A DNA stretch of 40,108 nucleotides from positions 1 through 40,108 of the forward strand of contig JASLLL010000026.1 in the NCBI GenBank assembly GCA_030747075.1. The letters run 5' to 3'. This DNA comes from Gemmatimonadota bacterium (lineage in GTDB: Bacteria; ARS69). Below are positions 33,755 to 38,899 of this stretch, in pieces. Position 1 is the first letter of the stretch. Each line of letters starts with the position of its first letter. The position numbers and the translations under genes are program-made. Under the pieces are notes generated by a model. That model was not told the origin of the DNA, made no database searches, and worked only from the letters and a program-made list of their open reading frames with translations.

Positions 33755-34146
33755 TCCTGTCACATTGTAGATTTTGGCGTTTCCCCCCCGTTCCTGCAGC
33801 ACCCAAGGGAAGCCTATAGACAGCTTGCTAATGCTTCGTGCCGGGTTTCTTCGAGGTCGCAACGCAAGGAGATGAGCGGGTTCCCGTGTCAGATTGAGGC
33901 CCTTCCCCCGGGTCGCGCGTGAGCAGAATCTGCTCATGTCTGGCACCCTCCTGTCCAGCTTCAAGTCGTAGCTGCTGAGATCATGCACGAAGCCTCACGG
34001 GATGCGAAATGGCATCACGCGAGGAAAAGGTGCCCGAAGATCTTCAGGTTTCCGGCGGATCATGCCGAGAATCCGGAAGACGGAACCCTGGAATGGCCAG
34101 GGAGATGGAAGCGACAGCCGGAATCTGCGAAAGGGCGGGTCGTCAG
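33729..34146 (+). other. 418-base leader before the polysaccharide export genes
   Basis: The largest gap in the window. It contains the promoter candidate, a run of seven C (33783-33789), a 17-base palindrome at 33920-33936 and a TGGCAC (33941-33946) resembling half of a sigma54 site. No riboswitch was recognised; I looked for the conserved pieces of c-di-GMP aptamers and did not find them. The frame of the next gene is open from 34009, but that part is not protein-like. Confidence 0.6.
33920..33936. promoter_or_regulatory. 17-base perfect palindrome, candidate operator
   Basis: TGAGCAGA-A-TCTGCTCA, eight-base arms with one central base. It lies about 166 bases downstream of the promoter candidate and 211 bases upstream of the Wza-like start. 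No known operator class is recognised; LexA, Fur and NtrC consensus sequences do not match. Confidence 0.55.
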
Positions 34147-35034
34147 GTGCGGAAACTCCAGACAGTGCTTCTCTTGATCGCCCTCTTTGCAGGTCTTGGG
34201 CTTTGCTCGCAAGGTTGCGGGTCGGCCTACTACCGGGAGGGGGAGGACGAGTTCGGGGATCTGCCGGACTCGCTTCGAATCCTGGTTGAGACCAGGGAAA
34301 GCGTGGAGCGTCGCGCTTCCAGAGAGGCCGAAGGCGTGACCGTCCGAGAGGTCGGAGCGGTGGCGGCCAAGGGGCTTCCCCTGGAGTTTGCAAGCGAGGG
34401 AGCGTATCTGCTGAGGCGAGGGGATCAGATTCAGGTCGAGGTTCTCTTCTATCCGGAGATGCGAACGCTCTCGTGGGTCCGACCGGACGGGATGGTCACC
34501 GCACCCGGCATTGGAGATGTGGAAGCTCTCGGCAGGCGTCCTGAGGAAGTGGCTGCAGACATTGAGGCCTACTACAGCACTCTTCTTCGAGACCCGACCA
34601 CGACGGTCAATGTGGTCGATTTCGGGGAACGGAAAGCCTATGTCTTTGGCGAAGTCCTGAAGCCCGGGGCGGTTCCACTGGAACAGCGTATGACGCTTAC
34701 CCAGGCGTTGGCTTCCGTGGGGAGTGTGTCTCACGATGCCAAGCTTTCGTCGGTGGTACTGCTCCGACGGAAGACCAGCCATTCCGCGCAGGCTTATCGT
34801 CTGGACCTTCATGGAGTTCTGGACGGTCAGTCTCTGGCTGCGGATCTGATCCTTCAGCCGGACGATGTGGTCTATGTGCCGCGGAAGTTTGTCGCGAAGA
34901 TGGAACAGTTCGTGGAGCAGGTCTTCGGGGGACTCTTCCCGATTCCGGACACATTCATCAAGGGCTACGACGCCATTCATGTGGACGAGCGGTCCGCTCT
35001 CCGCAGAAACATCACCGTCGACGGGGGCCAGTAG
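34147..35034 (+). CDS. Wza-like polysaccharide export lipoprotein
   Basis: 295 residues from GTG 34147. This start puts a hydrophobic leader (VRKLQTVLLLIALFAG) right at the N terminus and has AAGGGCGGG upstream; the longer frame from 34009 would bury it. A cysteine at 24 (SQGC) is a plausible but atypical lipobox. A Poly_export domain (about 85-165, LRRGDQIQVEVL) precedes one SLBB domain (about 168-250, KAYVFGEVLKPGAVPL). Wza-type proteins form the outer-membrane channel for capsule or exopolysaccharide. The chain-length gene starts three bases after the stop. Confidence 0.88.
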   Translation: MRKLQTVLLLIALFAGLGLCSQGCGSAYYREGEDEFGDLPDSLRILVETRESVERRASREAEGVTVREVGAVAAKGLPLEFASEGAYLLRRGDQIQVEVLFYPEMRTLSWVRPDGMVTAPGIGDVEALGRRPEEVAADIEAYYSTLLRDPTTTVNVVDFGERKAYVFGEVLKPGAVPLEQRMTLTQALASVGSVSHDAKLSSVVLLRRKTSHSAQAYRLDLHGVLDGQSLAADLILQPDDVVYVPRKFVAKMEQFVEQVFGGLFPIPDTFIKGYDAIHVDERSALRRNITVDGGQ

Positions 35035-35037
35035 ACC

Positions 35038-36477
35038 ATGGCCGAGATGGAATCCGCGTACTCACAGGGTGCCGAGGTATCCCGGCAGTTCAGCTCCCGG
35101 GACATTCTGGCCATTCTCTTTCGTCGCAAGTGGGTGATCCTGTCGATCTTCCTCGCCACCCTGGCAATGGGCATCTCGGCCAGCCTCAAGACCACCTCGG
35201 AGTATCAGGCCACCGCCAAGGTCCTGATCCGTCGCGAAGAGGGCTCGTCCTTCCAGAAGATGCGTTCCCCGTATCTGGGTCTGGAAGAGGAGATGAACAC
35301 CGAGATCGAGATCCTCAAGTCCACGCCGGTGTTGCAGCGTGCGCTGGACGAGGTCGCGGAGCGTCTCCGGGACTTGCCCGTGGAGGAGCGAGCGGTCCTC
35401 TTCCCTCCGGAGGATCCGGAGCTGGTTTATGAAGTTCCGGGACCGCGCTGGATTCGAAAGAACATCCAGGCGGAACCGATCGAGAAGTCCAATGTGATCA
35501 TGATTCGGCTCCGTCATACGAACCCGGCAACGGCCAAGATGATCGTGGACGCGGTGACGGCGTCCTATGTTGTCGAGCGGATCAGTGTTCGCCGGAATCC
35601 CATGCTGGAGTCGTTCTTTGAGGACCGGACGGCAGGACTGCGCGACCGTCTTCTGGACTTGCGCCTTGAACTCGGGCAGATGCAGGTGGAATCGGGGATT
35701 TACGATCAGGAGTGGCAGCAGCGACTCAATCTCGGCACGCTGGATGAACTTCGCACGAATCTGCTGACGGTTCGCATTCGACGCGAGACGGAAGAAGCCA
35801 AGCTCCGCGCGGCCCGCCACGCCGTGATGAACCGTCCGGATCTCCTGGTTCCGACACGGGAGTTCGAAGACAGTCCCGCCTTCCAGGACTTGCGCACGAA
35901 GCTGATCGACAAGAAGGCGACCCTGGCCGATCTGTCCGCACGGTACCTTCCGGGCAATCCCAAGGTGCAGCACGCGTTGAGTCTTGTGCACCAGTTGGAG
36001 ACGGATCTCCGTGAGGAGATTGATCTTCAACTGGCCATGCACGAAAGCGATATCGAAAGTCTGAGGGCACACGAGCGAGCGTTGGCGGGAGCCGTGAAGG
36101 ATGTGGTTCAAGAGATGAACCGCATTCCTCAGTTCTCACCGGTCATTCGCCAGTTGGAGCGTGAGATCAACAACACCGCCGAACTGTACGAGCTTGTGGG
36201 GACAAAGATGGTCGATACGCAGATCTCCGAAACGGAAGATCATCGAATGGTGAACGCCAAGATCCTCAATCCCGCGACGGTGGGGCTCTCCTTTGTCCAG
36301 GAGCGGAAGAGTCTCTTCGCGCTCTTTGCTGCGCTGTTGGGGCTGTCGCTTGGATTGGCGCTGGCGTTCCTGATCGAGGGAATGGATCAGACATTCCGGA
36401 CCCCCCATGATGTCGAAACCAGTTTGAATGTGCCGCTTCTCGGCTCCATCCCGGAGCTGGGCAGCGCACAACCGTAG
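35038..36477 (+). CDS. Wzz/GNVR chain-length determinant, inner-membrane PCP protein without kinase domain
   Basis: 479 residues. An N-terminal Wzz domain has the first membrane helix at about 31-50. A long periplasmic coiled-coil section (about 170-400) follows, then the GNVR region with VIRQLEREINNTAELYELV. The second membrane helix is at about 424-448, and the protein ends with LNVPLLGSIPEL, the linker that in Wzc leads into the tyrosine kinase. So this is the membrane half of a Wzc-like protein with the kinase as a separate gene. It controls polymer length and bridges to the Wza-like channel. Confidence 0.88.
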   Translation: MAEMESAYSQGAEVSRQFSSRDILAILFRRKWVILSIFLATLAMGISASLKTTSEYQATAKVLIRREEGSSFQKMRSPYLGLEEEMNTEIEILKSTPVLQRALDEVAERLRDLPVEERAVLFPPEDPELVYEVPGPRWIRKNIQAEPIEKSNVIMIRLRHTNPATAKMIVDAVTASYVVERISVRRNPMLESFFEDRTAGLRDRLLDLRLELGQMQVESGIYDQEWQQRLNLGTLDELRTNLLTVRIRRETEEAKLRAARHAVMNRPDLLVPTREFEDSPAFQDLRTKLIDKKATLADLSARYLPGNPKVQHALSLVHQLETDLREEIDLQLAMHESDIESLRAHERALAGAVKDVVQEMNRIPQFSPVIRQLEREINNTAELYELVGTKMVDTQISETEDHRMVNAKILNPATVGLSFVQERKSLFALFAALLGLSLGLALAFLIEGMDQTFRTPHDVETSLNVPLLGSIPELGSAQP

Positions 36478-36487
36478 GAGAGTCGCT

Positions 36488-38080
36488 TTGTACGAGAAGT
36501 TCTTCGGATTCGACCGGGCCCCGTTCGAGCTGGTTCCGGACCCGGACTTCCTCTTTCTCGGGGAGTCCCACGAGTCCGCCCTTGCGAATCTCACGATCGG
36601 AGTAGAGGGAGGGAAGGGCTTCATCGTCATCACCGGAGCGGTGGGCACGGGGAAGACGACAATGATCCGCGCACTCCTGCGTCGACTGGGGCGTGAGAAG
36701 GATGTCTGCCTGATCCAGCAGCCGGACTTCGACGAGACGGAACTTCTGCAGAGCATTCTCGACGGTTTCGGCGTGGATGGCGCCGGAGTGGGGCGCATGG
36801 AACTTCGCCGGCGAATGAGCGGGTTCCTGAAGGGAAGAAGCGAACCGGCCATCCTCATCATCGATGAAGCTCATCTGATGTCGGAGGACTCGCTGGAACA
36901 GATCCGCCTCTTGTCGAACTTCGAGGAGGAGAATCGCAAGCTCCTGCAGATCATTCTGTCGGGCCAACCCGAACTGAAGGACCTGATGGCGCGGCCGCGG
37001 TTGCAGCCGCTTGCGCAACGCATTGAGATGTACTACGAGATTGTCGCTCTTCCGCCTGAAGAAACCGCTGCTTATGTGAAGAAGCGTGTTCAGGTCGCGG
37101 GCAATCCGGAGACCCTTTCGTTCGATCCGGCAGCAGTGGACATGATTCACGGGCTGTCGGGGGGCATTCCCCGGCTCATCAACATTCTTTCGGACCGAAC
37201 GCTGATCACGGCGTATGTGGCGGGTTCTCGACGAGTGACGCCCGATCTGGTCCGGGAGGCCTACGAAGACCTGGGAGATGTCACGCGCTCCATCATGCCG
37301 GGCGGCGGATCGGTCATTTCGATGGAGGCTGCCAGAGAAGCCTCACGAGCTCGCGAAGAGCGGGAAGAGATGCCTGCGGCCGTGGAACCCACGGTGGTTT
37401 CGGAGTTCGAGGAAGCCCCTGCTCACGCTGAGGGGCAGGAGTTTTGCGAAGAGCCTGCTCACAGGGAGACTCCTGAGTTCGTCGAGGCGCCGCCGGATCC
37501 GTCGGAGTCCCCGGAAGCACGCAGAGAAGGGGGAGCGGGGCGTGTCGCGGGTGCGCTCGTCCTCTTGACGCTTCTGGGTATGTCGATCGTTTCCTGGCGC
37601 TCGCCGGACATTCTGGCCGGTGTCCTGAGTTTTGGAAGAGGCGAGGAAGTCCCGCCCACGGCGGGGATGTCGTCCGCTGGAGCGCCGTCGGTGGCTGCGG
37701 TTGCGTCGGTCCCGCCGATGGTGGAGGAGCCTGCGCCCAAGGCTGATGCTGTCCCGCAAGTGGCGAGGACGGGAGACGCCGGTTCGCCCGGCACAACACG
37801 CCCGGCCTATACGATTCATGTGGGTTCATTCCGCGAGGTCGATTCCGCCAGCCGGTTTGCTGCCGATATGGAGAGGGCCACCGATTTGTCTTCGCAAGTT
37901 CACCCGACAGAGCTGGAAACGGGCCTTTGGTACCGGGTTCTCCTGGGGGGCTTTGAAGATCGTGATACTGCCCGGGAGCAGATGCTTGCAGTAAAGAAGT
38001 CGCATGGACTGTCCTTTCCCCGCGTGATCAGTGTGCTTCCTCCCGAAGAGGATGGAAGCCCATACTCCGCGGGCCAGTAA
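36488..38080 (+). CDS. ExeA-type AAA ATPase with membrane helix and SPOR domain (XrtA-associated-ATPase-like)
   Basis: 530 residues from TTG 36488, with AGGAGA six bases upstream; the frame is open to 36428 but only inside the previous gene. The opening MYEKFFGFDRAPFELVPDPD is typical of ExeA-like ATPases of exosortase-linked exopolysaccharide clusters. Walker A GAVGTGKT is at 50-57 and Walker B AILIIDEAH at 121-129. A linker contains three 12-residue repeats (306-341), then one membrane helix (about 353-370), a proline/alanine-rich section and a C-terminal SPOR domain (about 440-517, YTIHVGSFRE). SPOR domains bind denuded peptidoglycan, so the protein may couple export to the cell wall. Confidence 0.87.
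   Translation: MYEKFFGFDRAPFELVPDPDFLFLGESHESALANLTIGVEGGKGFIVITGAVGTGKTTMIRALLRRLGREKDVCLIQQPDFDETELLQSILDGFGVDGAGVGRMELRRRMSGFLKGRSEPAILIIDEAHLMSEDSLEQIRLLSNFEEENRKLLQIILSGQPELKDLMARPRLQPLAQRIEMYYEIVALPPEETAAYVKKRVQVAGNPETLSFDPAAVDMIHGLSGGIPRLINILSDRTLITAYVAGSRRVTPDLVREAYEDLGDVTRSIMPGGGSVISMEAAREASRAREEREEMPAAVEPTVVSEFEEAPAHAEGQEFCEEPAHRETPEFVEAPPDPSESPEARREGGAGRVAGALVLLTLLGMSIVSWRSPDILAGVLSFGRGEEVPPTAGMSSAGAPSVAAVASVPPMVEEPAPKADAVPQVARTGDAGSPGTTRPAYTIHVGSFREVDSASRFAADMERATDLSSQVHPTELETGLWYRVLLGGFEDRDTAREQMLAVKKSHGLSFPRVISVLPPEEDGSPYSAGQ
37403..37510 (+). repeat. Three 12-residue repeats in the ATPase linker
   Basis: The codons for residues 306-341 encode EFEEAPAHAEGQ, EFCEEPAHRETP and EFVEAPPDPSES, a 36-base period repeated three times with divergence. 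The units are acidic and proline-containing, just before the membrane helix on the cytoplasmic side. Confidence 0.7.
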
Positions 38081-38095
38081 GCGAGGGGAAGAACC

Positions 38096-38899
38096 GTGAG
38101 CAAGATCCGTGATGCCATGAACAGAGCGCGCACCGGCGCCAATGGACCCGAGACAGAAGCCTCGGCGGTGGTCGGCGGGCCGGAGGCGGTGCCTGCTCCG
38201 GAACCGGATCCCGCGTCGCAGGTGGCTCCTCCCGCACAGGAGAGGGGGCCTGGCGGGCTGGTCCCGGCGATGTCCGCGGACACTCTTCAGTATCTGGAGA
38301 GCATCGGGAAGCAGGTGGAGGTGGCCCTGGGGCCCACAGAACGCCGAGCACTGGTGTTCACAGCGCCCGTCCCGGAGGAGGGCGTCTCCAGCGTGGTGTC
38401 ACAGTTCGCCCAGATGCTGTCTCTGCGTGGTGAGAAGGTGCTCCTCATCGACGGGAACCCGCGGCACCCATCGGTTCAAGCCACCTTCGATGTTCCGGGG
38501 AGTCCCGGTCTGGCTGAACACATGACCGGCAAGGCCGATCAAGTAGACATCATCCGGAAGACGGAGTTCGCGAATCTGAGCGTTGTGGCCATGGGCTCCT
38601 GTGCGGATCGCATGCAAGCGGAAGCCGTGACCGAGGGACTCGGCCAGTTTGTGGAATCGGTGGCGGCCGAGTACGACTATGTTCTTGTGGATGTGGATCA
38701 TGTCGGATCGCCCTTCTTCTCGACCGCTCTGGTGGGCTCTGCGGACGGGTTGGTTCTTGTGATTCGGTCGGGACAGACGAATCGGGCTGTTGCCAATCGT
38801 GCATGTGAGACGGTGCGCCAGGTGGGCGGCCGTATCCTGGGGGTCGTCCTGAATCGTCGGGAGTTCCCCATTCCGGACTTCATTTACCGCAGACTGTAG
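38096..38899 (+). CDS. BY-kinase-like (CpsD/CapB family) protein with degenerate nucleotide site
   Basis: 267 residues, GTG start with GAGGGGAAG upstream. The fold matches the cytoplasmic tyrosine autokinase that partners Wzz/Wzc proteins: RRALVFTAPVPEEG, then EKVLLIDGNPRHPSV and a Walker B strand YVLVDVD. The Walker A lysine is missing: the motif reads EEGVSS, with valine at 97. Walker A' reads DGN instead of DxD (N121). The C terminus has one tyrosine (YRRL) rather than a tyrosine cluster. It is probably not an active kinase but may still bind the chain-length protein as a regulator. The N-terminal 60 residues are a disordered-looking proline/alanine linker. Confidence 0.8.
   Translation: MSKIRDAMNRARTGANGPETEASAVVGGPEAVPAPEPDPASQVAPPAQERGPGGLVPAMSADTLQYLESIGKQVEVALGPTERRALVFTAPVPEEGVSSVVSQFAQMLSLRGEKVLLIDGNPRHPSVQATFDVPGSPGLAEHMTGKADQVDIIRKTEFANLSVVAMGSCADRMQAEAVTEGLGQFVESVAAEYDYVLVDVDHVGSPFFSTALVGSADGLVLVIRSGQTNRAVANRACETVRQVGGRILGVVLNRREFPIPDFIYRRL

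Follow-up and report, generated by a model that had tools for sequence, protein, structure and literature searches.

In models of BY-kinase-based capsule and exopolysaccharide production, PCP-2 octamers are built and dissolved by cycles of tyrosine phosphorylation. The kinases themselves, for instance CapB2 of Staphylococcus aureus and Wzc of E. coli, are active autokinases carrying a Walker A lysine, the DxD of Walker A', the EX2RX2R motif and a C-terminal tyrosine cluster. CapB is a stand-alone partner of its PCP-2; the C-terminal extension of CapA binds CapB and activates the kinase, and the octamer interface of this pair is made half by EX2RX2R and half by the tyrosine cluster (PMC3795738). 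Kinase-dead BY domains can also support PCP-2 proteins, as described for EcpK/EpsV of Myxococcus xanthus and for HfsB/HfsA (PMC12004946). EcpK is devoid of all Walker motifs and lacks a number of strands and helices, beta4-beta5 among them; its C-terminus is a helix rich in Lys/Arg and free of tyrosines, while the C-terminal helix of HfsB, the holdfast pseudokinase of Caulobacter crescentus, is predicted to contact the first transmembrane helix of HfsA (PMC12004946). BY pseudokinases have, therefore, already been published, and the lysine-less clade considered here is a separate variant, set apart from them by these descriptions.

The window, that is the whole analysed stretch of 40,108 nucleotides from a Gemmatimonadota bacterium, carries at its end, after lipid A and heptosyltransferase genes, a polysaccharide export locus composed of a GSU2086-family protein, OPX, PCP-2, an XrtA-type AAA ATPase with SPOR domain, the BY-kinase-like protein of 267 residues and a PMT_2-type protein (Table 1). 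The earlier note had placed the BY-kinase-like gene beside a Wzz-type partner. Such a partner is indeed encoded in the locus, has no kinase domain and keeps its cytoplasmic C-terminal extension (IEGMDQTFRTPHDVETSLNVPLLGSIPELGSAQP), but it is not the immediate neighbour, being separated by the ATPase gene. The SPOR domain joined to the C-terminus of this ATPase would put a peptidoglycan-binding part in the periplasm. At the other end of the window, a gene at 480-1541 encodes a protein arginine kinase of the McsB type (346 bits, under the cut-off of 385); the genome also has lipid A genes.

Table 1. Features of the export locus and of its BY-kinase-like gene, in window coordinates.
Feature	Position	Strand	Evidence
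OPX polysaccharide export protein	34009..35034	+	Poly_export 60 bits, SLBB_2 49 bits
PCP-2 (Wzz-type), no kinase domain	35038..36477	+	Pfam Wzz 43.5 bits, TIGR03017 EpsF 130 bits
XrtA-type AAA ATPase, intact P-loop, then SPOR domain	36488..38080	+	TIGR03015 250 bits, AAA_22 96 bits, SPOR 39.5 bits
Putative pseudokinase (BY-kinase-like), 267 aa, Walker A lysine absent	38096..38899	+	ORF, translation; TIGR01007; AlphaFold2, Foldseek
Codon GTC = V97, position of the Walker A lysine	38384..38386	+	Lys in 0/33 relatives covering the site; Thr in 25/33
D119-G120-N121, altered Walker A' (DxN)	38450..38458	+	D in 33/33, N in 31/33 of the family
D199, Walker B aspartate, kept	38690..38692	+	34/34 family rows
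C-terminal tail FPIPDFIYRRL, invariant P260 and Y264	38864..38896	+	Y264 top of 208 columns; IPxxxY 36/36; low pLDDT (monomer model)
PMT_2-type membrane protein of the mannosyltransferase family, truncated at the contig end	38906..40108	+	PMT_2 40.8 bits; adjoins the lysine-less gene in several relatives

The reading frame is intact, as had been claimed, and runs from a GTG start to a TAG stop. Its product falls slightly short of NCBIfam TIGR01007 (polysaccharide biosynthesis tyrosine autokinase; 98 bits at a cut-off of 108) and matches BceF, CapB, Etk, VpsO and Wzc among the PDB sequences (phmmer). The AlphaFold2 model, built on a 34-sequence alignment, has a pLDDT of 82 with a core above 90, and its top Foldseek matches are exclusively BY-kinases: Etk comes first (E 4e-16), CapAB and Wzc are also among the best (E <1e-12), and TM-scores are about 0.67-0.70. 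Against this fold two catalytic features of active BY-kinases are missing. Aligned with solved structures, V97 takes the column of K55 in CapB2 and N121 that of the second aspartate of DxD, precisely the substitutions reported in the earlier note. The Walker B aspartate is retained, while the PP normally following it is lost. From this loss of motifs the protein can be regarded as a catalytically dead BY-kinase domain.

It may be objected that the term pseudokinase is wrong, and that we deal with an unusual but still active ATPase or kinase using a residue outside the P-loop. Conservation of S/T98, D119, D199 and N253, with which Mg-nucleotide could bind, as well as the prevalence of threonine at the lysine position, speak in favour of it. 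A usable lysine elsewhere in the P-loop, which the earlier note had named as an observation that would overturn its proposal, was looked for, yet residues 85-122 contain no conserved Lys or Arg in the family alignment. The only conserved R/K nearby is at position 84, where it is usual and shared with canonical kinases. Since DxD is lost as well and the absent tyrosine cluster leaves nothing to phosphorylate, we regard an active enzyme of this kind as very improbable.

The pocket as such is strongly preserved. G96, S/T98, D119, D199 and N253 are highly conserved, as is the new N121, and four of these positions rank among the top ten of 208 alignment columns; N253 is second only to Y264 of the tail, and N121, D199 and D119 fall within the top eight. 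The residue following the lysine position is always Ser or Thr in the 33 rows covering this site. DxN is found in 31 of 33 family rows and DxD in the other two. L160 and L114 have lost the lysine alone and retain DxD; one loss can thus occur without the other. Absence of the lysine need not mean loss of nucleotide binding, because engineered K55M CapB2 still binds ADP-Mg (PMC3795738) and several structures of Wzc K540M carry MgADP in their titles. Judging by its pocket, the protein may, therefore, still bind nucleotide, though the same conservation could alternatively reflect fold stability alone.

Substitutions of this kind are by no means confined to one strain. A profile search across genomes, counted by phylum-level group, revealed lysine-less members in four of five genomes from the window's own phylum, in every one of the 20 from a second phylum, in all 7 from a third and in a single genome of each of two further groups. 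Altogether there are 36 distinct full-length members, plus partial ones, distributed over at least five phylum-level groups; one belongs to a Krumholzibacteriota MAG (L072), another (L032) comes from a 'Gemmatimonadetes' MAG, and three more were found in a broad sample. Within the same family, two other genomes have orthologues that are 57-60% identical to the protein and also lack the lysine, and in a third the copy is partial and does not include the P-loop region. Homologues this close with GKS/T intact, which the earlier note had said would point to a strain-specific mutation, were thus not found: those covering the P-loop are all lysine-less.

A tree built with the motif columns left out placed the lysine-less rows on one side of a branch (support 79/67, 78% of bootstrap trees), which gives moderate support to a single origin of the clade. 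Ratios of dN/dS in seven close pairs are about 0.02-0.2. A strain-specific mutation or an assembly error is ruled out by the relatives in other assemblies and phyla. A decaying duplicate of an intact BY-kinase, or a sequencing error, would account for the loss of several catalytic motifs, but the recurrence of the same substitutions in independent assemblies, dN/dS values well below 1 and the invariant tail refute this explanation, and its probability is next to nil. Shared substitutions in several phyla, low dN/dS and preserved synteny together give good support, at the sequence level, to a maintained pseudokinase rather than a decaying gene, in line with the earlier proposal. Nor was kinase function simply lost from these bacteria, because 31 of the 33 genomes with a lysine-less gene, sampled from the five groups, also hold a lysine-bearing BY-kinase. 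The two others are a genome only 67% complete and G059 (90% complete), where no lysine-bearing BY-kinase was detectable. G059 has two lysine-less copies (L162 and L163), and a separate OPX and PCP accompany each of them.

The C-terminus requires another interpretation than the one first given. Y264, present in 34 of 34 rows, is the sole tyrosine among the last 14 residues, and the earlier note was right in counting one; the idea that it is what remains of a reduced tyrosine cluster has to be rejected. Lysine-less proteins have 1-3 tyrosines after the LN motif versus mostly 4-15 in lysine-bearing relatives, and Y264 is part of a separate IPxxxY motif. Since lysine-bearing kinases carry this tail too, it is no remnant of the cluster: L202 has the lysine, DxD and IPDFIY followed by an intact tyrosine cluster. 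The lysine, DxD and tail are present in L195 without the cluster, while L188 and L189 combine the lysine and tail with DxN. Such proteins look like a graded series, yet the tail-bearing, lysine-bearing ones do not form one tree group with the lysine-less clade; mapped on the tree, the tail requires three changes and lysine loss only one. The ring-interface motif EX2RX2R was found in just 1 of 36 lysine-less rows versus 15 of 17 lysine-bearing ones (those with enough upstream sequence), and with 35 of 36 members devoid of it the known ring should not be assumed.

An invariant tyrosine naturally raises the question of whether Y264 is phosphorylated in trans by an intact BY-kinase, in which case the dead paralogue would be a regulatory substrate reporting on the active enzyme or controlled by it. 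The necessary partners are at hand: frequent co-occurrence of both genes apart, the genome from which the window comes encodes one other BY-kinase (C3:69613), which has GEGKTT and DGD as well as a tyrosine cluster, and two proteins of the LMW tyrosine phosphatase type. This active kinase, however, resides in an OPX-PCP locus of its own, G059 maintains its two lysine-less copies without any detectable kinase, and the position of the tail motif ahead of a separate cluster in L202 argues for a docking role. We consider this scenario unlikely, although somewhat less so than retained catalysis. On the contig of the intact kinase, about 21 kb away, there is an exosortase gene (L214, G000:C3:91170-91901, TIGR02602 178 bits). 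Given this location on another contig, near the intact kinase, a link between exosortase and the lysine-less gene was rejected.

Among the described systems the closest are EcpK and HfsB. Like EcpK, the protein is stand-alone, has neither the catalytic lysine nor a tyrosine cluster on its BY-kinase fold, and is encoded together with a kinase-free PCP-2 (EpsV in M. xanthus) in an exopolysaccharide context; the same pairing is found in its relatives. Unlike EcpK, as far as the published description goes, it keeps the pocket except for the lysine and the second aspartate, small strands are modelled at 153-155 and 161-164, and its tail contains the invariant tyrosine in place of a tyrosine-free Lys/Arg helix, so that it lacks the features that mark EcpK in particular. 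HfsB is likewise a stand-alone pseudokinase with a kinase-free PCP-2 partner (HfsA), but no IPxxxY tail is mentioned in its description (PMC12004946). XrtA-associated autokinases (TIGR03018, cut-off 230.65) are more distant from our protein (53.4 bits) than from L195 (173 bits) and L202 (141 bits). These two resemble it in the IPDFIY tail, the MxKI N-terminus and the adjoining XrtA-type ATPase, L202 even filling the same PCP-ATPase-kinase slot, and differ from it in having the lysine and DxD and, for L202, the tyrosine cluster. CapB2 and Wzc share the fold and, for CapB, the stand-alone arrangement.

The gene order OPX-PCP-(ATPase)-lysine-less gene was observed in every readable locus of all lineages examined, with the ATPase in only part of them. 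Partner PCPs at these loci have no kinase domain, and beyond their second membrane helix nearly all of them keep a cytoplasmic extension. Several of the relatives' genes lie close to ones for glycosyltransferases, a flippase-type protein or initiating sugar transferases (Bac_transf). These neighbourhoods fit a Wzx/Wzy-type pathway, as seen in the relatives' loci, the window's contig ending early. An apparent fusion of ATPase and pseudokinase in G072 (a 693-aa open frame) was discarded, since the ATPase is encoded by an ORF of its own and the upstream part of the frame results from reading out of frame. In L196, a lysine-bearing BY-kinase-like protein of G089, the N-terminus carries a c-di-GMP-binding motif of the MshEN type (NF053729, 70.9 bits at a cut-off of 38); L192 of G258 is its close relative.

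Based on these data we consider it likely that, in this export locus, the dead BY-kinase domain partners the kinase-free PCP-2 from the cytoplasmic side. It would dock on the C-terminal extension of the PCP, as CapB does on CapA, and support PCP-2 assembly without a cycle of tyrosine phosphorylation; its pocket probably keeps nucleotide, which would act as a ligand of structural or switching function, and the docking element standing in for the tyrosine-cluster contact is probably the IPxxxY tail. The proposed docking follows from gene position and the precedents of CapA/CapB and EcpK/EpsV, nucleotide binding from conservation of the pocket, and the role of the tail from its invariance. Thus the scaffold part has precedent in EcpK and HfsB, while we infer the nucleotide and tail parts. 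Gating of chain length without phosphorylation, suggested in the earlier note, is plausible by analogy with EcpK/EpsV (PMC12004946). As lysine loss and the invariant tail are kept in at least five phylum-level groups, the gene is probably a surface-polysaccharide scaffold rather than a broken one.

Only tentatively can this proposal be taken a step further, to a nucleotide-binding, phosphorylation-independent clamp, where the tail replaces the tyrosine cluster as a contact between subunits or with the PCP. The Walker A lysine of Wzc stabilises an open state by holding the Walker B aspartate, and this state cannot engage Mg-ATP (PMC8517177). If the clamp interpretation is true, lysine loss with the Mg ligands kept would favour the closed state with catalysis abolished.

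The lysine-less clade would join EcpK and HfsB as systems managing without cycles of tyrosine phosphorylation, and represents a widespread, vertically conserved case where catalytic residues are gone but the nucleotide pocket is kept. Together with the existence of tail-bearing relatives that possess the lysine, this makes the need of the export machine for nucleotide binding, as opposed to phosphotransfer, directly testable.
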